From positions 1 through 41,643 of the forward strand of contig CAJOKR010000001.1 of NCBI GenBank assembly GCA_905235135.1: a DNA stretch of 41,643 nucleotides. Direction: 5' to 3'. This document shows, in pieces, positions 4,188 through 41,643 of the stretch. Position 1 is the first letter of the stretch, and every line of letters starts with the position of its first letter. The position numbers and the translations under genes were made by a program. The DNA is from an uncultured Bacteroidales bacterium (GTDB lineage Bacteria > Bacteroidota > Bacteroidia > Bacteroidales > WCHB1-69). The notes under the pieces are model-generated. The model was not told where the DNA came from. It was given only the letters and a program-made list of their open reading frames with translations, and searched no databases.

Positions 4188-5024
4188 ATGGAAGTACACG
4201 AACCGATAAAGCGAGACAAGAACCTGAACATCACGGTGATAGCCGACAATTCCCCCTTCGGGCGGATAGCGGCAAAACACGGTGTGCATCTGGCCGAGGT
4301 GTTCCAAGCCTCGCTGACGGTCATGGCAAATTTCGGGTTCCAACTTCCCGACAGCACTTCCGAGCCTGACAAAGCGTTCGTGACAGAGCTGCAAAACATC
4401 GTCCAGGAGGCCAAAAACAACCAGGTTATCACAGATTACGTATTTCCGGAAACGCTCTTCAAGTATGCGGAAGAGCACAACACCGCCATGCTCGTCATCG
4501 GGATTGATAAGACAGCGAAAGAGGGTCTCTTCAGCGTCAAGAAAGCGCTCAAGTTCATCCGCCAGTCGCGGTTTCCCGTCATGACCGTCACGGAAACCGT
4601 TGAGGATACCACCCGCTACAAACATATCCTGCTAACACTGGATATCGAGCGGCAGAACAAGGAAAAAGCACTGTGGGCGGGCTACTTCAGCCGATTTTAT
4701 GGCTCCGTCATCCACATTCTCTATCCCGAATACAAAGACGAGGGACTGGCCAAGTTAGTGCGCGACAATGTGGATTTCGTGGAAAAACTGTACGAAAATC
4801 TGGAGATTTCATACGACAAGTACCCGGTGCCATCGCAAAGCCATTTGGATGCGTATGCCCTGACTGACACCCACGAGTCCGGTGCGCTGGTCATCATGAT
4901 GACGCGCTACTACACCCTCGGCGACATCCTGACGGGTCCCCGCGAGCGCAAAATCATCGGACAAACGGGGCTGCCGGTACTCTGCATCAACCAACGCGAC
5001 GACTTGTACGTACTTTGCACGTAG
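4188..5024 (+). CDS. Tandem universal stress protein (UspA-like)
   Basis: The 278-residue cytoplasmic protein has two Usp-like halves. The first (about 10-140) runs from LNITVIADNSPFG to FPVMTVTE and includes LVIGIDKTAKEG. The second (about 150-278) runs from YKHILLTLDIERQ to GLPVLCIN. The canonical ATP-binding G-x2-G-x9-G loop is not clear in either half, so nucleotide binding is doubtful. Usp proteins are linked to stress and growth arrest, but the partner is unknown. A GTG at 4161 would extend the frame into the structured repeat, so the ATG at 4188 (MEVHEPIKRDK) is preferred. The stop TAG (5022-5024) is formed by the first bases of a degenerate palindrome copy. Confidence 0.8.
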   Translation: MEVHEPIKRDKNLNITVIADNSPFGRIAAKHGVHLAEVFQASLTVMANFGFQLPDSTSEPDKAFVTELQNIVQEAKNNQVITDYVFPETLFKYAEEHNTAMLVIGIDKTAKEGLFSVKKALKFIRQSRFPVMTVTETVEDTTRYKHILLTLDIERQNKEKALWAGYFSRFYGSVIHILYPEYKDEGLAKLVRDNVDFVEKLYENLEISYDKYPVPSQSHLDAYALTDTHESGALVIMMTRYYTLGDILTGPRERKIIGQTGLPVLCINQRDDLYVLCT

Positions 5025-21939: not shown

Positions 21940-24900
21940 TTACTTCTTGACGATTTTGGCAGTTTGAATCTGATGCTGACGGTTTTCAACATTCAAGATA
22001 CAAATCCCAGAAGGATAGTTACTTACATTAATATCCGTCTGATTACCCTCTATCCGACCGCCTTGCAGCAGTTTGCCGTTCAAGTCGTAGAGACGGAAAG
22101 TATAACCCTGTTCTTCATCGTTTGTGGTTACATGGATGTAATCCGTAGTAGGATTCGGCCATACTTGAGCCGTAGCAACGTTTTGCTCTATTTCGCTGAT
22201 GCCCACAGGATTGTTCACTTTGCCGCACGGGAAGGAGATGAGGTCGATGTAGGCACAGTCATGGCCACTCGAACCATAGTAGTCTTTCGAATAGGTCCAC
22301 TGATAGGTATGCACCCCGGCAGTCACCGGATAGGCAGCGCGAGTCCAACCGGTAACGCCGCTCCATTCATCCTTCGTCTGACCGTCAATCTTGAAAGTCA
22401 GCTTGTCGTAGGTCGCTTCGCTCGACACTTTGTAGTAAAAAGAGATAGTATCGGTGACGGTGGCCGTGTCGGTGATGGACAGGCGGGTGGAAGAACTATG
22501 GCTGATGACACCGGATTTTGCGCAATAAGTGCCTTCGTAGGGGGAGCTCGTAACGATGGTCCACGGTATTGACGAATTGTTAACCCAGTTCATATTCGTG
22601 AAATCGCCGCTTTCCCAATCTTCAGCCACTTCTCCAATCTTGACGGGGAAGTTGGTGTTTGCGAAATAGTAGTTGACCCAAAGGGACGTTTTGATGTAGG
22701 CGATGGTTGGCTCCTGAATGGAGCTGTTAGCGGTGGCCTCAAAAGTCACAGTGGTGGTTCCATTGACATCAACCGCTTGGAAGGGGATATTACCCCCCGG
22801 CAAAGAGATTTCATCGCCCTCATTATTCACAAAGAAAGCACCGCCCACAATCGGCATGTTGCCGGTGTTGGCGATAGTGGCGGTACATTGGAACGTCTCA
22901 CCGTAGTCCACTCGACCGTTGCCGTTGCCCGTACCAGCGTCATTAATGGACATGGAGGTAATCGCTAACGTGGGGGCGTAAAGTTTCACCGTCTTGTTCT
23001 GAACCAGCGTATCATTGCCGAAGATGACCTCCATCTTGATGGTGGCATTGTGGTTGGCCGGGGCTATGTCGCTCACTTTGAATGTGAAAGTGGGCGATGA
23101 GGAAAGGGTGTCATGAGCGGCCACTGTCGCAACAGTCAACTCTTGGGTGCTGCCCAATGTGATGTAGGAATCCTCCGTGGAGAGTTTGATACGAACATTT
23201 GTGGCAGCCTCATTACCGATGTTGATAATCTGCGGAGCAACCTGCAGGGTCTTTCCAAATTCAGGCAGGTTGTTGTGCCGGTTGTTCACGAAAGGTACGG
23301 TCTTGTCGGTCAGATCCAAATCACCAATAAGCACATACGGTCCTTCGTTGGGGATGAAATTGATTGTCCCCTCGTAAGGCAGGTAGTTGGGCGCGGTGGC
23401 CAGCACGTGGAGGGTGTCGGTGGGCAGGTAGGTCTGGTTGAATGCCATCGTGTATTGGCCATTCTGAATGTTCCCGACAGCAATGACTTCCGTGCCTTTG
23501 GTAACCGCAATCCGGGCGTTCTCCACCGAAGAGGTGAAAGTAACGGACGGAGTACCGACGGGGAAGGTAGCGTTGTGGGAAACCTCCAACTGTGCCGGCT
23601 CAGCAGTACGCATCAGCAGTGTCGGATCGCCGAAGAGAATCCAAGTGCGAAAGACCTCCACATCGTTATAGACATCCAACATGTGGATCATCCCGTTGAA
23701 AACGATGCCGCCATATCTGAAATACTGGTTGCCGGGCGTGGTGCCGACCAACAGGTCAATCATCCTATCCTGGGCACACATCGGGGAGTTCCAAGGCTGG
23801 TTGATGGTAGAACCAATCATGCTGACTGCACCGGTAGGCTGACCGTCGTACGTGGCGCGCAACCAAGCCTCCGCAAAGCAGGTACCCGTATGGTATTCGC
23901 CGTTCACGCAGGCCACTGACAGGATTAACGGCAGCTTGCCTACATTGGTCAACGAATTGACATTATTGTTGTTGAAGTTGGTTGTAACCCACATCTGCAC
24001 ATCGCCATGACCGCAATAACTGATAATGCCCACACCGTCGTTGACAGCTGTGCTGACCATGGTTGCCGTCGGGTTTCCGGAAGCATCCAAGCCGCCTTGA
24101 TTGCCCTCAAAAAGCTCATAGCCAGAGGTATAGGTATAGCCTTGCAACTTGTTGTCAATGTTACGGATATGCTGGTAGTCGTACTCGTTGTTGTCGCCAG
24201 GACCCTGGTTGGAGGCGATACCCATAAACGATGTGAAATGGGAGGTCTCCGGCGGATTCTGTTCATACTCGATAAAGCGCTGCACCTGCGTCTCCACCTG
24301 GGAAACATTCTCGGCGGAAATCTTACCCAGGATGATGTCGGGATAAGAGTCGTTGCCGGCAATTTCCGTGAAGTTGTTGTCAACCTTATTACCGCCGATT
24401 GTCGGGGTGGGGAACTGTGCATTGTCACCCACGATAATCACGAAGGCGAGGTTGTGTTCGTTGTAATAGCTTTGAATGTAGCTCTTAATGGTTTGGGCAG
24501 TGCTGCCGGCAGTGGAAAGGGGAACCATCTCCGTGTTGAATCCGTTGCGGATTTTCCAGTCCACGTAAGGCTGCATGGCTTCCATAAAGTTTTCGGGACA
24601 GATAATGAGAATGTCACCCTCCTCAACCACGGGTGTGCCGCGCAAACCGCTGTAGTTCAGGAAATGCTGGGTATAGATGGCATCGAAGGTGCGGTTGTTC
24701 TTTTGGGATTGGACAAAGGAACGCCCGCTGTTGTAACGCACTTTTACCGTCACCGACGAATAAACCTTCAGCTTTTGTGCCGACGGGTTGTAGTCGAAGG
24801 GGTAAACTTTGACGCTAACACCGTGAATGTCACGAAGTTGGTAATCATCACCCACTGCGGCGGCGCTGCCCAACAGGTAGTTGGCAGACTGGTAATCCGC

Positions 24901-25281
24901 GTTCTTCGTGTAGGGGATAGTCGCCGGATCGATGTTGCGGTAGAGCTTACCCTTGGACGGGGCGAGGACAAAGTTCGGAATTTCCACGAACTGTGCGTCC
25001 AAGATTTCCGTTTCCGGGTTACTGCCTTCGGGCACCATCAGGGAGAAGGCCGTCTGCAACAACTCGGGACTTCCCTTTTTCAGGACAGGATAAGCACTCT
25101 CCATGTGGAGTGTCTGCATTTCTGTACCGTCAACGGTCACGGTTTCCGTGTGATAGGTGCCGAAATCCACCCGCACCACGGCCTCTCTCTGGTTGGAGCT
25201 CAGCAGGGTGTATTGGATGTTTTGGGCCTGCCCGAAGGTTACTGCGAGCAGAAGGATGAGGAATGTTGTGATCTTTTTCAC
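21940..25281 (-). CDS. Gingipain-like C25 cysteine protease exported by T9SS
   Basis: The 1113-residue protein has a signal peptide (1-20, cut after GQAQ), a propeptide (about 21-215) and a C25 catalytic domain (about 220-570) with the His of YCGHGD (His425) and the Cys of SVACVNGEY (Cys458). Ig-like and CARDB-like repeats follow (about 575-880). After them comes a MAM/cleaved-adhesin-type jelly roll (about 885-1035, from EDWESGDF to YIDLISFP). The T9SS type A sorting domain (about 1045-1113) runs from VWPNPTTDYIHV through FRLYDLNGKLLQGG to TAKIVKK. By family it is a surface or secreted endopeptidase; whether it prefers Arg or Lys cannot be told. It lies 61 bp after the aminotransferase gene and 3 bp before surE. 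Confidence 0.93.
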   Translation of the reverse strand: MKKITTFLILLLAVTFGQAQNIQYTLLSSNQREAVVRVDFGTYHTETVTVDGTEMQTLHMESAYPVLKKGSPELLQTAFSLMVPEGSNPETEILDAQFVEIPNFVLAPSKGKLYRNIDPATIPYTKNADYQSANYLLGSAAAVGDDYQLRDIHGVSVKVYPFDYNPSAQKLKVYSSVTVKVRYNSGRSFVQSQKNNRTFDAIYTQHFLNYSGLRGTPVVEEGDILIICPENFMEAMQPYVDWKIRNGFNTEMVPLSTAGSTAQTIKSYIQSYYNEHNLAFVIIVGDNAQFPTPTIGGNKVDNNFTEIAGNDSYPDIILGKISAENVSQVETQVQRFIEYEQNPPETSHFTSFMGIASNQGPGDNNEYDYQHIRNIDNKLQGYTYTSGYELFEGNQGGLDASGNPTATMVSTAVNDGVGIISYCGHGDVQMWVTTNFNNNNVNSLTNVGKLPLILSVACVNGEYHTGTCFAEAWLRATYDGQPTGAVSMIGSTINQPWNSPMCAQDRMIDLLVGTTPGNQYFRYGGIVFNGMIHMLDVYNDVEVFRTWILFGDPTLLMRTAEPAQLEVSHNATFPVGTPSVTFTSSVENARIAVTKGTEVIAVGNIQNGQYTMAFNQTYLPTDTLHVLATAPNYLPYEGTINFIPNEGPYVLIGDLDLTDKTVPFVNNRHNNLPEFGKTLQVAPQIINIGNEAATNVRIKLSTEDSYITLGSTQELTVATVAAHDTLSSSPTFTFKVSDIAPANHNATIKMEVIFGNDTLVQNKTVKLYAPTLAITSMSINDAGTGNGNGRVDYGETFQCTATIANTGNMPIVGGAFFVNNEGDEISLPGGNIPFQAVDVNGTTTVTFEATANSSIQEPTIAYIKTSLWVNYYFANTNFPVKIGEVAEDWESGDFTNMNWVNNSSIPWTIVTSSPYEGTYCAKSGVISHSSSTRLSITDTATVTDTISFYYKVSSEATYDKLTFKIDGQTKDEWSGVTGWTRAAYPVTAGVHTYQWTYSKDYYGSSGHDCAYIDLISFPCGKVNNPVGISEIEQNVATAQVWPNPTTDYIHVTTNDEEQGYTFRLYDLNGKLLQGGRIEGNQTDINVSNYPSGICILNVENRQHQIQTAKIVKK

Positions 25282-34541: not shown

Positions 34542-34590
34542 TAAACCTTAAACCTTAAACCTTAAACCTTAAACCTTAAACCTTAAACCA
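34542..34590 (+). repeat. Seven-unit TAAACCT array in the leader of the CCG-domain gene
   Basis: Seven nearly identical 7-bp units (last one TAAACCA) run to 6 nt before the ATG at 34597, so they form the G-free 5' leader of that gene. Confidence 0.85.
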
Positions 34591-34596
34591 AAAAGA

Positions 34597-35355
34597 ATGA
34601 GCGATTCGCAACAAACAGTATTCCTGTACGTTCCCTGCCAGATGGACCTCTTCCAGGCGGAAACGGTGACGAGTGCCATCACGGTGCTCAACCGGCTGGA
34701 TCAGTTCTGCCATTACGACAAGGAAAGCACCTGCTGCGGCCGCCGTTTCTTCATGGAGGGTGAGATGCAGTACGCCAAAGACCTTGGCTATCAGGTCATC
34801 CAAACCTACACGGAGTATTGCAACCTGCACAGGACCACCTTTCCCGTGGTGGTTCCCGATGCCGCCTGCGCGGGTTTCATGCGCAAGCATTTCGACCTGA
34901 TTCTGAAAAACGCCACCCTGCCCAACGAGCTGAACACCTTCATCAGCAACGTCTATGAACTGTGCGATTATATCGTCAACGTGTTGAAGGTGAACAAATT
35001 GGGGAATAGTTTCCGCCACCGCGTGTTCTACTTCAAATCCTGCTCGTCCAAACATCTCTATCCCGACAACAACGCTCCCGAGACGCTTTTAAGCAACACG
35101 CTTGGACTGGACCTGATCGAGGATACGGAGGAGAAAAACTGCTGCTGCGGGGCCAACGGCCGTTTCCCGATGCTGAACCCCGAGGCCGCTGAAAAGATGA
35201 CTGGCGAAATTGTGCTCCGCGCCTACAACCAGGGGGCCGAATACATCACCTCCACCGACATCCACTGCCTGCAACTGCTCGATGCTTACAAACAGCAACA
35301 CGATGTCGATATTGACATTATCCATATTTCTGACATCCTCCGCGGCGAAGAATAA
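34597..35355 (+). CDS. LutA/YkgE-like (Fe-S)-binding CCG-domain protein
   Basis: The 252-residue protein has two cysteine-rich CCG domains. The first has CCGRRFFMEGE and PDAACAGFMRKH. The second has KSCSSKH, NCCCGANGRFPM and TSTDIHCLQLLD. This is the arrangement of LutA, the small subunit of the LutABC lactate oxidation complex, and of heterodisulfide reductase HdrB. LutB and LutC are absent, and acetate kinase lies next. A role in lactate or glycolate oxidation is possible but unproven. The first domain lacks one of the usual paired cysteines in a strict CX(n)CCG reading. The leader is a TAAACCT heptad array. Confidence 0.85.
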   Translation: MSDSQQTVFLYVPCQMDLFQAETVTSAITVLNRLDQFCHYDKESTCCGRRFFMEGEMQYAKDLGYQVIQTYTEYCNLHRTTFPVVVPDAACAGFMRKHFDLILKNATLPNELNTFISNVYELCDYIVNVLKVNKLGNSFRHRVFYFKSCSSKHLYPDNNAPETLLSNTLGLDLIEDTEEKNCCCGANGRFPMLNPEAAEKMTGEIVLRAYNQGAEYITSTDIHCLQLLDAYKQQHDVDIDIIHISDILRGEE

Positions 35356-36743: not shown

Positions 36744-36948
36744 CAAGTTTCAAGTTAAACCCCAAACCCTAAACCCCAAACCCTAAACCCCAAACCCTAA
36801 ACCCCAAACCTTAAACCCCAAACCTTAAACCCTAAACCTTAAACCCTAAACCTTAAACCCTAAACCTTAAACCTTAAACCCTAAACCTTAAACCCTAAAC
36901 CTTAAACCTTAAACCCTAAACCTTAAACCTTAAACCCTAAACCCTAAA
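36741..36948 (+). repeat. Telomere-like heptad array, C-rich on + strand (CCCTAAA / CCTTAAA)
   Basis: About 29 units of 7 bp begin with TTTCAAG words and go on with mixed CCCCAAA, CCCTAAA and CCTTAAA. The whole array lacks G after its first few units. It is inverted relative to the array at 38447-38670. Confidence 0.9.
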
Positions 36949-37132
36949 CTAATATGCACTACGGCCAATATGTCAAAGATCGTTAGAAATCATTCGCGAA
37001 CTGATTTCCTTTTTTGAGATAAGACGGGCATGCCTCTTACCCCAAACATTTTTGCAAATATACACAAAAAAACGCCCTTTGTCAAGAGGTAAATGCATTT
37101 TTAACAATTTTTAAGGTGTAGGACGCACCTCC
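36949..37132. other. Non-coding spacer with a leftward promoter
   Basis: There is no gene of useful length. A strong minus-strand promoter lies at 37055-37085. The region also holds a 10-codon ATG frame (36954) that stops early; one frame over, the sequence stays open for about 45 codons, so a decayed short gene is possible. Confidence 0.45.
37055..37085 (-). promoter_or_regulatory. Orphan promoter reading into the C-rich array
   Basis: On the minus strand TTGAC (-33 side, 37081-37085) is followed by a 18-20 bp spacer and TATATTTG (37055-37062), the best consensus promoter in the window. Downstream there is no gene, only a possible 19-codon frame and then the heptad array, which would be transcribed as UUUAGGG/UUUAAGG RNA. 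Confidence 0.6.
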
Positions 37133-38446
37133 TTACTTCAACACCTTCTTCAGATACTCCGTCGTGATTTCCACCGGGCGGTAGATGCAATTGGTGAAGT
37201 TATGGTCGTAGTATTCGAGTTCGTAGTATTCACTGCCGTTCCAAAGTTGGTGGAAACGCTCGCCGCAGGTGAAGGGTACGAGACGGTCGCCATTGCCGTG
37301 GATGATGCAGGCATTGCCGAGATATTTAGCCGAAGTCTCGAAAATGGGGAGATAGAGCGCGGTTTTGAGGTAGCGGCGACCAAGGGCGATACCGTTGACC
37401 AGCACGAGGCTATCAGGCGGATCGAGGGGGTTGAAGTCGATGCCGAAGAGATTACCGCGGGCTATGTCGTCGCGCACAGAGGAAGCCGGAGCCAGCAATG
37501 TCACCGCCTTGATGTCCTCAGGATGCTTGCCCGCCACCATCGCCGCCACTATAGCCCCTTGCGAGTGACCCACCAAGGCGATATCATCCACAAACCGCAA
37601 ATCTTGCGCGTAGGCCAGCACCTGCTCCAAATCCTCAATCTCGTTCGGGATTGTCATCTCGGAGAATCGACCGTCACTCTTGCCGTGACCGTTGAAGTCG
37701 AACATCATCGTGGCGAAACCTGCCGATCTTAACTGTATGGCAATCCGCTGCATCAATTCGAAGTCGTGGTCACAGTTCAGCCCATGACACAAAACCACCA
37801 AATCGCAACGCTGACCCGGGTTGAGTTGAGGCTTGTACAGTTCAGCCCACAACTTGCCTTTGCCACCATCTATCGTTATGGTGTCACAAGTTCCAGAGAG
37901 CTTAGCGGGAAGAGGTTCAGCAAAGACATCGTACAGCTTTTTCTCAATCTTATACGATAACACCGTGCTAACCAGTACTTTGCCATCGGGTCCAATAAGA
38001 TAAATAGAAGGAATCCAGCGCACGCCGTAGGCTTTGGCCACCTCCGACTGGTTCATCCGTTTCAGCTCGCTCACCTGAGGGTATGGCACGCCTGATTTGG
38101 CGATATAGTCCGGCCACTTCTCCTTGTCCGTGTCGAAAGAGACCCCAAGGAACTCCACCCCATTCTCATGGAACTGGTTGTATAGGCGGATGATTTCGGG
38201 GAGGTCTTTGCGACAATCGGGGCACCAGGAGGCCCAAAAGTCGATAACAACGTACTTCCCCTTGGCAAAGTCACTGAACTTAAGCGTTTTGCCATCAGGT
38301 GTCTGCAGTTGGAAATCCGGCGCGGGTGTCCCCGGTTTCAACAGTTCCTGCGCGTAGGTCTCGTCAAAATCCAACACCACCTGCGCATGCACGTCCGCAA
38401 ACGCGAAGGCCAGAAGGAATAGCCATAAAAGTCGTATGTTTCTCAT
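37133..38446 (-). CDS. Secreted TlpA-type thioredoxin fused to an alpha/beta hydrolase
   Basis: The 437-residue protein has a signal peptide (1-22, cut after DVHAQ). A TlpA/ResA-type thioredoxin domain follows (about 35-170) with W-C-P-D-C (Cys75, Cys78) and the cis-Pro loop WIPS (144-147). An alpha/beta hydrolase of the serine aminopeptidase/esterase type makes up about 185-437, with HG at 221-222, the nucleophile elbow GHSQG (Ser295), Asp387 in GNGDRLVP and His415 in YYDHNF. Both active sites look intact. It would act in the periplasm. The substrate is unknown; redox control of the esterase or joint handling of thioesters is speculation. Its ATG abuts the G-rich array with no spacer, and the promoter seems to lie about 390 bp upstream. 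Confidence 0.88.
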   Translation of the reverse strand: MRNIRLLWLFLLAFAFADVHAQVVLDFDETYAQELLKPGTPAPDFQLQTPDGKTLKFSDFAKGKYVVIDFWASWCPDCRKDLPEIIRLYNQFHENGVEFLGVSFDTDKEKWPDYIAKSGVPYPQVSELKRMNQSEVAKAYGVRWIPSIYLIGPDGKVLVSTVLSYKIEKKLYDVFAEPLPAKLSGTCDTITIDGGKGKLWAELYKPQLNPGQRCDLVVLCHGLNCDHDFELMQRIAIQLRSAGFATMMFDFNGHGKSDGRFSEMTIPNEIEDLEQVLAYAQDLRFVDDIALVGHSQGAIVAAMVAGKHPEDIKAVTLLAPASSVRDDIARGNLFGIDFNPLDPPDSLVLVNGIALGRRYLKTALYLPIFETSAKYLGNACIIHGNGDRLVPFTCGERFHQLWNGSEYYELEYYDHNFTNCIYRPVEITTEYLKKVLK

Positions 38447-38670
38447 AAGGTTTAAGGTTTAGGGTTTAAGGTTTAGGGTTTAAGGTTTAAGGTTTAGGGT
38501 TTAGGGTTTAAGGTTTAGGGTTTAAGGTTTAGGGTTTAAGGTTTAGGGTTTAAGGTTTAGGGTTTAAGGTTTAAGGTTTAGGGTTTAGGGTTTAGGGTTT
38601 AAGGTTTAGGGTTTAAGGTTTAAGGTTTAAGGTTTAGGGTTTAAGGTTTAAGGTTTAAGGTTTAGGGTTT
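38447..38670 (+). repeat. Telomere-like heptad array, G-rich on + strand (TTTAGGG / TTTAAGG)
   Basis: Thirty-two units of 7 bp, each TTTAGGG or TTTAAGG, end exactly at the start codon of the minus-strand fusion gene, of which they are the 5' leader. The array is inverted relative to 36741-36948. Confidence 0.92.
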
Positions 38671-38678
38671 ATAGTTTT

Positions 38679-38797
38679 AAGTCTCAAGTCTTAAGTCTTA
38701 AGTCCAAAGTCCAAAGTCTCAAGTCTCAAGTCTTAAGTCCAAAGTCCAAAGTCTCAAGTCTCAAGTCTTAAGTCTCACGTCTCACGTCTAAAGTCTT
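38679..38797 (+). repeat. Seventeen-unit AAGTCTC-type heptad array
   Basis: Seventeen units in exact register are drawn from AAGTCTC, AAGTCTT, AAGTCCA, ACGTCTC and ACGTCTA. It lies directly beyond the TTTAGGG array, with 8 bp between. Confidence 0.9.
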
Positions 38798-38884: not shown

Positions 38885-39934
38885 ATGACGAACGAACATC
38901 TGTCTTCGACAATCATGCCGCGCAGCCGGAAAATGCGCGCCCGATATAGGGTTGCGGTGATTGGCAGCGGGAGCTGGGCGACGGCCATTGTGAAGATCAT
39001 CTCGGTGAACTTGGAGCACATCCACTGGTGGGTGAGGCAGGAAGAGGTGGCGGAAAGCATCATGAAATACGGTCACAACCCCAAATATCTCAGCTCCGTC
39101 TTCATCAATCCGGAAGACGTGAAGGTGAGCACTGACATCAAAAGTACCGTGGCGCGGGCGGATTATGTGATTATCGTCACCCCGTCGGCCTATCTGCACA
39201 AGACTTTGGAACCGCTCAAACGGTCGCAGCTGTCGAAAAAGAAGATCATCCTCGCGGTGAAGGGCATCGTGCCCGAGACCATGCAACTCATCAGCGACTA
39301 CATGCAGTCGCAGTTCAAAGTGCCTTTAGATCAGCTATGTATCATCAGCGGCCCGTCACATGCCGAAGAGATTGCGCAGGAGAAATTCACCTTTCTGACC
39401 GCCGCTTCCACCAACACGGAGTTGGCTGAGACGGTCGCGAAATTCTTCACCACCCGCTACTGCCGCACCTCCGTCTCCAACGACGTGATGGGCGCGGAAC
39501 TGGCCATCGTGCTGAAAAACATTTACGCTCTCGGGGCCGGCATTTACAGCGGTCTCGGTTACGGGGACAACTTCATCGCCGCCTACGTGTCGAACTGCGT
39601 GAAGGAGATGAAGTACTTTGTATCAGAGGTTTACCCCAACGAGAACCGCCATATTTCCGACTCGGTCTATCTGGGCGACCTTTTGGTGACCGCCTACTCC
39701 ACCTTCAGCCGCAACCGGCTTTTCGGCATCATGATCGGGCACGGTCTTTCCGTGCGCGTATCGCTGATGGAGCTGCGGATGGTCTCTGAAGGCTACACTG
39801 CCTGCCGCTGCGTGCATGAAATCAACAAAAAAATCGGTGCTAACATCCCCATAGTGGAGACCATTTACGGCATTTTGTACGAAAACAACAACGTCTCCTC
39901 TGAGATGAAGCGCATTGCTGAACACTTTGTGTGA
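38885..39934 (+). CDS. gpsA: NAD(P)-dependent glycerol-3-phosphate dehydrogenase
   Basis: The 349-residue enzyme makes sn-glycerol 3-phosphate from dihydroxyacetone phosphate for phospholipids. It has the nucleotide-binding VAVIGSGSWATAI (about 24-36), ILAVKGI, ISGPSHAEEIAQ, the catalytic-Lys stretch GAELAIVLKNIYALGAG and YLGDLLVTAYSTFSRNRLFG. About 20 residues precede the Rossmann fold. Its TGA overlaps the ATG of the next gene (TGATG), so the two are translationally coupled. Confidence 0.93.
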   Translation: MTNEHLSSTIMPRSRKMRARYRVAVIGSGSWATAIVKIISVNLEHIHWWVRQEEVAESIMKYGHNPKYLSSVFINPEDVKVSTDIKSTVARADYVIIVTPSAYLHKTLEPLKRSQLSKKKIILAVKGIVPETMQLISDYMQSQFKVPLDQLCIISGPSHAEEIAQEKFTFLTAASTNTELAETVAKFFTTRYCRTSVSNDVMGAELAIVLKNIYALGAGIYSGLGYGDNFIAAYVSNCVKEMKYFVSEVYPNENRHISDSVYLGDLLVTAYSTFSRNRLFGIMIGHGLSVRVSLMELRMVSEGYTACRCVHEINKKIGANIPIVETIYGILYENNNVSSEMKRIAEHFV

Positions 39935-40911
39935 TGATCCGGTTTCTCCAACATTCCGAAATTGACCCCGACAAATGGAACCAAGCTGTACGTAACAGTT
40001 TGTCTCCTAACGTATTGGCCGAATATGAGCTGTTGGATCTGCTCACGGGTGACGATACGTGGCACGCATTGGTCGATGACGACTACCAAGCCGTGATGCC
40101 GCTCCCGACCCGCCAAAAAGGAGTGTTAAAATATGTTTACACGCCGTTCTTTTTGCCGCAAATGGGCATCTTTTATCGACAAGAGCTGCATCCCGAAGAA
40201 ACAGATGCTTTCTTGCAAGAGATTTCCAAACACTATGTTTTGGCAGATGTGCTTCTTAACGAGACACAAGTATCACAGAAGCCATACAATTCCAATTTCA
40301 CTTCTTACAAACTTGATTTACAACCCGCTTATAATGAACTGTTTTGCCAATTCCATGAGAACACGAGGCGGAACATCAAGAAGGGTGAAAAGATGCTATG
40401 CAGGGTGACCGTAGAAGAAGAATCGGTGGCGGACATTATCGCACTTTTCCGAACAAACAAGGGTTCAGAAGAAACTGTACATTTTCGAGAGAACGATTAT
40501 GCAAGATTACAGCGCGTTTCCGATTACTTGCTGGAGCACAATCTGTTAGATATTTATGGTGTGCGTACTGCCGACGGACAATTGGCAGCAGGCGCCTTAT
40601 TTGTGAAGGACGGGAAACGTCGCTGGTTCTGGTTCTCCGGTCGCGACAACCGACTGTCGGAAAGCAAACCCATGTTCCAGCTGCTCGATGCCTATATCCG
40701 CAACCATGCGGAATCGGACCTTTACCTCGACTTTAACGGATCCTCAAACCCGAATGTTGCAAGATTGTACCAGAGTTTCGGCAGCTCAAAGCTCTTCATC
40801 CCGTTTGTGCGACGGTTCAAGAACCGGTTTTGGGAGAGAGTGGGAGAGAGTAATATATATTTCTTTATTTTTCCATTAATATTTACTAACAAAAATTTTT
40901 CTTTTTTTTAA
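39934..40911 (+). CDS. FemAB/GNAT-like acyltransferase with an AT-rich, probably foreign, C-terminal tail
   Basis: The 325-residue protein resembles Bacteroidota acetyltransferases of the FemAB/GNAT_acetyltran_6 type: TRRNIKKGEK (a stretch binding phosphate in the family), GVRTADGQLAAGALFVKDGKRRWFWFSGRDN, LYLDFNGSSNPNVARLYQSFGS. The substrate is unknown. The start ATG at 39934 overlaps the gpsA stop. Up to about residue 302 the composition matches its neighbours. A tandem 10-bp duplication (40831-40850) then leads into very AT-rich DNA, and the last 20 residues (IYFFIFPLIF...) are hydrophobic, of low complexity and unlike the family. The native C-terminus has probably been replaced. Confidence 0.75.
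   Translation: MIRFLQHSEIDPDKWNQAVRNSLSPNVLAEYELLDLLTGDDTWHALVDDDYQAVMPLPTRQKGVLKYVYTPFFLPQMGIFYRQELHPEETDAFLQEISKHYVLADVLLNETQVSQKPYNSNFTSYKLDLQPAYNELFCQFHENTRRNIKKGEKMLCRVTVEEESVADIIALFRTNKGSEETVHFRENDYARLQRVSDYLLEHNLLDIYGVRTADGQLAAGALFVKDGKRRWFWFSGRDNRLSESKPMFQLLDAYIRNHAESDLYLDFNGSSNPNVARLYQSFGSSKLFIPFVRRFKNRFWERVGESNIYFFIFPLIFTNKNFSFF
40831..40850 (+). repeat. 10-bp tandem duplication at the composition boundary
   Basis: TGGGAGAGAG occurs twice in tandem, and the next base begins DNA with almost no G or C. It may be a junction scar of an insertion or an assembly join. Confidence 0.7.
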
Positions 40912-41518
40912 CTTTTGTTCGTTTTAGCTCTAATTTATTCTCATATTCTAAATTAGACAATATTTTCTTAAAAATTTCTGAACTAATAAATTTTTCTCCT
41001 AATTTTTCAAATATCTCATCAATAGATTGATTTTCAAGTGCTGAAGTTTCAAAAAAAATTGCATCAATTTCTTTGGAAAATTCTTTAGCTTCTTTACTTT
41101 TGACTTTTTCCTTTGTATATAAATCACATTTATTTCCTGCAATAGCAAAAATTATTTCAGATATAGAATTATTTTTAACTGAATTATACCAATAACTTTT
41201 AATATTTTGAAACGTCTCTGAATTTGTTATATCATATACTAAAATACAAGCATAGGCTTCTTTATAAAATATAGAATTAACAGATCTAAAACGTTCTTCA
41301 CCGGCGGTATCCCATATATCGAAACTAATTTTGTATTGTCCTATTATTTGCGATTTAGTTGAATATGATGCACCTATGGTCGACTTTTCATTTTCTTTAA
41401 AAGAATCTAGATAACGTTTGATTATAGATGTTTTTCCAACACCACTATCACCAACAACTATGACTTTACAAGATATTGGTTTATCATTTTTTGTTTCTAT
41501 TTGTTTCTTATTTGACAT
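40886..41518 (-). CDS. Eukaryote-type Rab-family small GTPase
   Basis: The 210-residue protein is a complete Rab-like GTPase: G1 GDSGVGKTS (23-31), switch I Thr47 in STIGASY with the Rab F1-type IGASY, G3 WDTAGEERFRS (69-79), Rab F4-like FYKEAYACILVYDIT, G4 NKCD (129-132), G5 ETSAL (157-161). It ends in a Lys-rich tail with a single terminal Cys (KKKKNFC), a possible prenylation site. The catalytic Gln of DTAGQE is Glu74 here, so intrinsic hydrolysis may be low. IGASY recalls the Rab5/21/22 group. The frame is uninterrupted, uses TAG stop and CAA for Gln, and two counted 60-base lines are 25% and 18% GC. Upstream there is no TAnnTTTG box. An AATAAA lies about 16-22 nt after the stop, but this is not surprising in AT-rich DNA. 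Origin: transfer from a protist or anaerobic fungus, or a chimeric contig. Confidence 0.88.
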   Translation of the reverse strand: MSNKKQIETKNDKPISCKVIVVGDSGVGKTSIIKRYLDSFKENEKSTIGASYSTKSQIIGQYKISFDIWDTAGEERFRSVNSIFYKEAYACILVYDITNSETFQNIKSYWYNSVKNNSISEIIFAIAGNKCDLYTKEKVKSKEAKEFSKEIDAIFFETSALENQSIDEIFEKLGEKFISSEIFKKILSNLEYENKLELKRTKVKKKKNFC

Positions 41519-41598
41519 ATTTTTTAATTTTATAATTATTATTATTATAATTAAATAATTTTTTATTTTTTTAATATTGTAATAAATCTGTTGAAAAT
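41519..41598. other. AT-rich upstream flank of the Rab-like gene
   Basis: Eighty bases are nearly all A/T, with ATT/TTA runs. There is no bacterial -7 box or Shine-Dalgarno sequence; it looks like intergenic DNA of an AT-rich protist. Confidence 0.6.
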
Positions 41599-41643
41599 GG
41601 GGATTGGGGATTGGGGATTGGGGATTGGGGATTGGGGATTGGG
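41599..41643 (+). repeat. GGGGATT heptad array reaching the window edge
   Basis: Six full GGGGATT units and three more bases are perfectly regular, and the array continues beyond the window. The unit fits the GGNNATT heptads at 9021, 27421 and 31422 in clearly bacterial spacers. The G-runs could form quadruplexes. Confidence 0.9.

Follow-up and report, generated by a model that had tools for sequence, protein, structure and literature searches.

The contig analysed here (CAJOKR010000001.1 of assembly GCA_905235135.1; 41,643 nucleotides, hereafter designated the window), assigned to an uncultured Bacteroidales bacterium, carries close to its end an intact gene for a Rab-family small GTPase. 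We conclude, at a probability of about 95%, that the contig is a chimera of bacterial DNA and the end of a macronuclear chromosome from a gut ciliate, that is, an artefact rather than a case of gene transfer. The conclusion draws on the telomere-type end of the contig, the composition of the adjoining segment, the family to which the gene belongs, a truncated bacterial gene, and parallel contigs in other collections (for the features, see Table 1). A misjoined metagenomic contig had been offered merely as the alternative in the preliminary description of this DNA, and it is this alternative that the telomere-type contig end, the cut acetyltransferase gene, and the parallel fusions bear out.

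Table 1 Features at the junction and contig end of the window
Feature	Position	Strand	Remarks
Bacterial GNAT/FemAB-like acetyltransferase gene	39931-40836	+	3' end cut; Pfam PF13480, E 1.2e-10; recognisable bacterial part ends here
Junction zone	40837-40850	.	Adjoins or overlaps the 10-bp direct repeat TGGGAGAGAG x2 (40831-40851); may belong to either the ciliate or the bacterial side
AT-rich 3' trailer of the Rab gene	40851-40885	-	8.6% GC; starts with TAA right after the TAG stop
Rab-family small GTPase gene	40886-41518	-	210 aa; intron-free in frame; TAG stop; Rab22/31/5-like by best matches
Subtelomeric 5' leader	41519-41597	-	79 nt; 5.1% GC; compare the Entodinium subtelomere of ~100 bp (PMC6211341)
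Ciliate-type telomere	41598-41643	+	46 nt, perfect (GGGGATT)n; opposite strand (CCCCAAT)n; G-rich strand faces outward; contig end

The AT-rich segment encodes a Rab GTPase

The frame at 40886-41518 runs uninterrupted from ATG to TAG over 210 codons, with a TAA directly after the TAG, and thereby agrees with the intact, intron-free Rab frame that had been reported for it. Its product matches the Ras model of Pfam (PF00071) with an E value of 1.4e-47 (161.7 bits, versus a cut-off of 21.6). In a search of PDB sequences, the highest-ranking solved structures are those of Rab22A, Rab31, and Rab5B (E 7.7e-37 to 2.3e-35), and the best 60 of the 895 matches are all named Rab or Ypt, which by this search places the protein nearer to Rabs than to Ras, Rho, or Arf proteins. 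It is 44% identical to the aligned fragments of Rab22A and Rab31.

The G motifs, the Lys-rich tail, and the terminal Cys of the preliminary description are also seen, with Glu in place of Gln in G3. The protein resembles the Rab5/21/22/31 group in its G1 (GDSGVGKT), G3 (DTAGEE), G4 (NKCD), and G5 (TSAL) motifs, in the TIGA switch, and in a basic tail that ends in KKKNFC and carries a C-terminal Cys. It differs from the group in two respects. The usual Rab G3 motif is DTAGQE (in full WDTAGQE), of which the Gln is the usual catalytic residue and is present in both aligned Rabs (Rab22A and Rab31), whereas G3/switch II of the window protein reads WDTAGEE, with Glu at residue 74. Furthermore, the usual Rab C-terminus is CC or CXC, whereas the window protein has a single terminal Cys. 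The Rab gene is real, yet it is almost certainly non-bacterial. In a ciliate, its product would act as an ordinary Rab5/22/31-like switch that binds GTP, is anchored through the basic tail and the terminal Cys, and recruits effectors in what, by the best matches, is probably endosomal or phagosomal traffic.

Distribution of the Rab gene

A match to the Rab at E ≤ 1e-18 was found in one of the 393 genomes of the order, namely the genome of the window itself (hereafter designated G000), in a scan in which up to seven candidates were scored per genome; no close strain is among the 393. The occurrence of the same gene in related genomes, which had been proposed as a check, is accordingly not seen in the other 392 at this threshold. 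Among 59 relatives besides G000, 56 have no match and three have domains of 25-33% identity lying in frames of 713-1085 aa. In G000, an assembly of 88.2% completeness and 4.8% contamination, the Ras model has three further matches, all of them weak (E values of 2.8e-7 or worse) and located in frames 400-595 aa long.

Single-sequence searches of genome contigs and viral contigs confirmed no close relative of the Rab, a three-sequence alignment search of viral contigs that used two short peptide patterns only gave none, and there was no match in phage records. Plasmid records gave five matches at 25.5-30.1% identity and 58-78% query cover, all of them distant bacterial Rab-like genes; the annotation of two reads Rab family GTPase.

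Composition and codon usage

The break in GC content placed at about 40851 in the preliminary description, between an AT-rich block and neighbours near 50%, was confirmed by measurement: the segment 40851-41597 has 22.0% GC, whereas the two genes upstream of it (38885-40836) have 50.9%. Within the segment, the GC content is 24.8% in the Rab coding sequence and falls to the values given in Table 1 in the trailer and in the leader.

Synonymous codon usage was compared, in bits per codon, between tables made from five ciliate-type ORFs and from eleven genes of the window. The Rab gene scored +1.30 bits/codon towards the ciliate-type set, within the leave-one-out range of the ciliate-type ORFs (+1.04 to +1.53). 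The bacterial set of eleven scored -1.20 to -1.82 bits/codon with the table that it had itself trained, and the acetyltransferase gene on the junction side, which was outside the training set, scored -0.69 bits/codon. GC at third codon positions is likewise 0.13 in the Rab gene, 0.15 in the five ciliate-type ORFs, and 0.73 in the eleven bacterial genes. Codon usage thus sets the Rab gene apart from the bacterium but does not set ciliates apart from other AT-rich eukaryotes, as it mostly reflects AT content.

The contig ends in a ciliate-type telomere

Overlooked in the preliminary description, the array at 41598-41643 consists of 6.6 perfect copies of TGGGGAT, and its last base is the end of the contig, with nothing beyond. 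The unit (GGGGATT)n occurs in G000 only at this contig end; within the genus, two of 40 genomes have it, one of them G000 itself.

The same unit is published for gut litostome ciliates. Entodinium caudatum has putative telomeric (CCCCAAT)n repeats and a subtelomere of ~100 bp with a 15-bp AT periodicity (PMC6211341), and a GC content of 21.5% is given for it in a table of PMC10978948. According to the latter report, Balantidium ctenopharyngodoni has telomeric (CCCCAAT)n repeats, nanochromosomes, a mean GC content of 32.78%, and an AT-rich subtelomere, and according to another (PMC11316547), Muniziella cunhai has a (CCCCAAT)n telomere, an AT-rich genome, and the standard code, with TAA as the commonest stop. 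With this unit, the G-rich strand facing outward, an AT-rich leader, and one gene, the window end has the form of a gut litostome chromosome end. By the same token, the anaerobic fungus that had been put forward as a source is not indicated, since the telomere unit is the one of gut litostome ciliates. The gene-sized chromosomes of the three ciliates share with the window the (CCCCAAT)n telomere, the AT-rich genome, and the AT-rich subtelomere, and the Rab frame is compatible with the standard code given for Muniziella; it differs in stopping at TAG (followed by TAA), whereas the commonest stop in Muniziella is TAA. In contrast to these chromosomes, the window has one telomere only, its other end being bacterial DNA, so that the ciliate molecule is incomplete. 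The low GC contents of the leader and the coding sequence (5.1 and 24.8%) fit a litostome macronuclear chromosome, being a trait that is not specific to litostomes.

Intergenic heptamer arrays are found in the bacterium's own DNA as well; they lie in the window at 34542-34589, 36755-36949, and 38446-38796 and also at another locus (L171). Their units are TAAACCT, TTAAACCCTAAACC, TAAGGTT, AAGTCTC, and others; they are telomere-like, and one array is perfect over 48 bp. Because the bacterium has such arrays of other units, a heptamer array alone is no proof of a telomere.

Inner flanks of arrays of the telomere unit

Scanning the named genomes for a 32-base pattern yielded at least 119 loci, making, with the window, 126 arrays in 120 loci. 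After seven arrays with less than 60 nt of inner flank had been dropped, 119 arrays were measurable among the matches listed. The inner flank had 15% GC or less in six of these 119 listed arrays, namely those of the window, of four other contigs (L088, L091, L134, and L156), and of a fusion contig (L115). The next lowest value among the matches listed was 0.19 (L153, from a Bacteroidales metagenome-assembled genome, MAG), and the median of all listed arrays outside the window was 0.51. Five of the six low-GC-flank arrays lie at a contig end, those of the window, L088, L091, L134, and L156, with lengths of 46, 44, 49, 47, and 46 nt, respectively. This agreement near 46 nt is only partial, because the arrays of L115 and of three loci from a virus collection (L167, L168, and L170) range from 33 to 60 nt.

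The assignment of the terminal array to the bacterium's own heptamer repeats was rejected on this control. We regard as exceedingly improbable a reading built on that assignment, in which the AT-rich block comes from another eukaryotic source (anaerobic fungus, amoeba, or giant virus). Bacterial contigs do carry other heptamer arrays, AT-rich Rab genes occur in many protists, and codon usage does not separate AT-rich eukaryotes, all of which speak for such a source; nevertheless, the unit is found nowhere else in G000 and is the exact litostome telomere, the array abuts 5% GC DNA like four other contig ends, against the median of 0.51 among the listed arrays outside the window, and neither of the two viral scans (the second with the two short peptide patterns only) gave a Rab relative.

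In L153 (JAOZVK010000414.1), a (GGGGATT)n array at 4625-4666 lies 674 nt from the contig end, with an inner flank of 19% GC and degenerate repeats beyond. At two contig starts, L105 (46 nt, 1-46) and L017 (G018:C83, 29 nt, 1-29), the latter from a congeneric genome, (CCCCAAT)n stands beside DNA of ordinary GC content; these two are either fusions at a telomere or bacterial repeats and were not counted as support.

Parallel contigs in MAG and virus collections

L088, L091, L134, and L156, filed under Firmicutes, Clostridium, Firmicutes, and Methanobrevibacter, respectively, are telomere-capped AT-rich contigs of 3.1-4.0 kb and 26-30% GC with one long ORF each. By Pfam, the ORFs of L088 and L091 encode cation-transporting P-type ATPases, that of L134 a rhamnosidase (a family named as bacterial), and that of L156 an M8 leishmanolysin; the best solved-structure matches of the L091 ATPase are plasma-membrane calcium ATPases. 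In L115 (CAJOLR010000078.1, a reindeer Bacteroidaceae MAG), an AT-rich stretch and telomere at 1-120 run straight into DNA of ~50% GC. L115 is a fusion of a ciliate-type end with bacterial DNA, of the same sort as the window.

In IMG/VR, four loci (L167-L170) matched a 33-base pattern. L168 (IMGVR_UViG_3300010998_001116; 3,253 bp) carries two arrays, of 53 and 60 nt, one close to either end and each followed on its outer side by 10-13 nt of inverted repeat, and a single ORF of 928 aa encoding an SNF2 helicase (Pfam); it has the form of a complete gene-sized chromosome of a ciliate, entered in the collection as a virus. In L167 (IMGVR_UViG_3300028833_000049), also filed as a virus, arrays of 46 and 40 nt face each other at 469-574 between AT-rich arms. 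L170 is the start (1-1300) of a viral contig of 103,909 bp (IMGVR_UViG_3300021400_000885), where a 33-nt (CCCCAAT)n array lying 55 nt from the end is followed by an AT-rich ORF of 304 aa, a G run, and then DNA of ~35% GC with ORFs that look phage-like by eye; it is an apparent ciliate-phage chimera. A Pfam search of the 304-aa ORF found no family and the L134 match is to a bacterial-named rhamnosidase, so that the assignment of L170 and L134 to ciliates rests on telomere and composition. The arrays of L169 lie inside DNA of 63% GC and are unrelated.

L088, L091, L134, L156, and L168 and the fusions L115 and L170 have in common with the window the telomere unit and the AT-rich inner flank; the whole contigs have one long ORF each, and L115 and L170 show the same abrupt switch to prokaryotic or phage DNA. 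All seven differ from the window in carrying genes other than Rab and arrays of 33-60 nt. L115 differs also in that its junction is the telomere itself; in the window, as in L170, the two kinds of DNA meet on the trailer side of the gene.

The junction lies within an acetyltransferase gene

Counting G000 itself, 38 of the 40 genus genomes carry the acetyltransferase gene that lies upstream of the AT-rich segment. In all 15 relatives compared (L019-L033; 57-77% identity), the protein extends 8-11 residues past the position matching 40836, whereas the window frame continues past this point with RVGES and then with AT-rich codons. The join therefore lies inside the gene, between 40836 and 40851.

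The genes downstream of the acetyltransferase gene were inspected in the 15 relatives, and those of two were searched for in G000. AHCY, the downstream gene in L019, proved to be internal to contig C20 of G000, and rpsP, from L025, to contig C23, at 3.2 kb from the contig start. Because both genes lie inside other contigs, the search is uninformative, and it did not locate the true bacterial continuation. Six other relatives have, after the acetyltransferase gene, an Fe-S-type gene that by eye is like the window ORF at 34597-35355, which indicates that the gene order is not conserved. Elsewhere in the window, the long ORF at 21940-25281 has by eye a sorting-like C-terminus, which fits a Bacteroidota host.

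We give very little credence to a real but very recent transfer, in which a ciliate chromosome end, telomere included, would have integrated inside the acetyltransferase gene and the assembly would have broken in the telomeric repeat. Equally slight is the likelihood of the setting in which this would have occurred, a gut Bacteroidota living with or inside such ciliates and receiving the nanochromosome end with its intact Rab gene. Both kinds of DNA do lie on one contig, the Rab ORF is intact, and the array ends the contig, so that the sequence beyond it is unseen. Against these points, bacterial DNA is on one side only and the contig ends in a telomere-type array; 56 of the 59 relatives are without a match, the other three having the 25-33% identical domains, and the 392 other genomes of the order are without one at E ≤ 1e-18; the codon usage and GC content of the Rab gene are unameliorated; and similar fusions occur in unrelated contigs, one of them a phage contig. 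A recent transfer into the bacterial chromosome, with the gene possibly used against or within a host, had been advanced in the preliminary description. It is unsupported, because the AT-rich segment is bounded on its far side by a ciliate-type telomere, where the contig ends, and not by bacterial DNA. Nothing in the sequence calls for a true insertion.

Discussion

On the best explanation, 40851-41643 (perhaps from 40837) derives from a gut litostome ciliate (Trichostomatia, of the rumen type) and represents an end of one of its gene-sized macronuclear chromosomes, in which the telomere is followed by a short AT-rich leader, one Rab gene read inward, and an AT-rich trailer. A chimera formed in the library or during assembly would have joined this end to the bacterial contig within the last codons of the acetyltransferase gene; a litostome as the host species and either of these steps as the origin of the join are what we infer from the features above. 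Telomeres embedded in this way have a precedent in the Balantidium report, where ~3% of the contigs in the assembly and 48% of the Nanopore reads after correction contained them; they are ascribed there to chimeras or artefacts (PMC10978948).

The presence of the Rab gene in this Bacteroidales genome is therefore almost certainly an artefact, produced by the false joining of a telomere-capped ciliate end to bacterial DNA, and not a gene transfer. The claim of a transfer from a eukaryote to this bacterium should be dropped. The practical use of the finding lies in recognising ciliate-type chromosome ends in prokaryotic MAGs and virus records, where they can pass for eukaryotic-like genes of bacteria or phages. 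Among the loci of this analysis, such ends were marked by a (CCCCAAT)n/(GGGGATT)n array whose inner flank did not exceed 15% GC.
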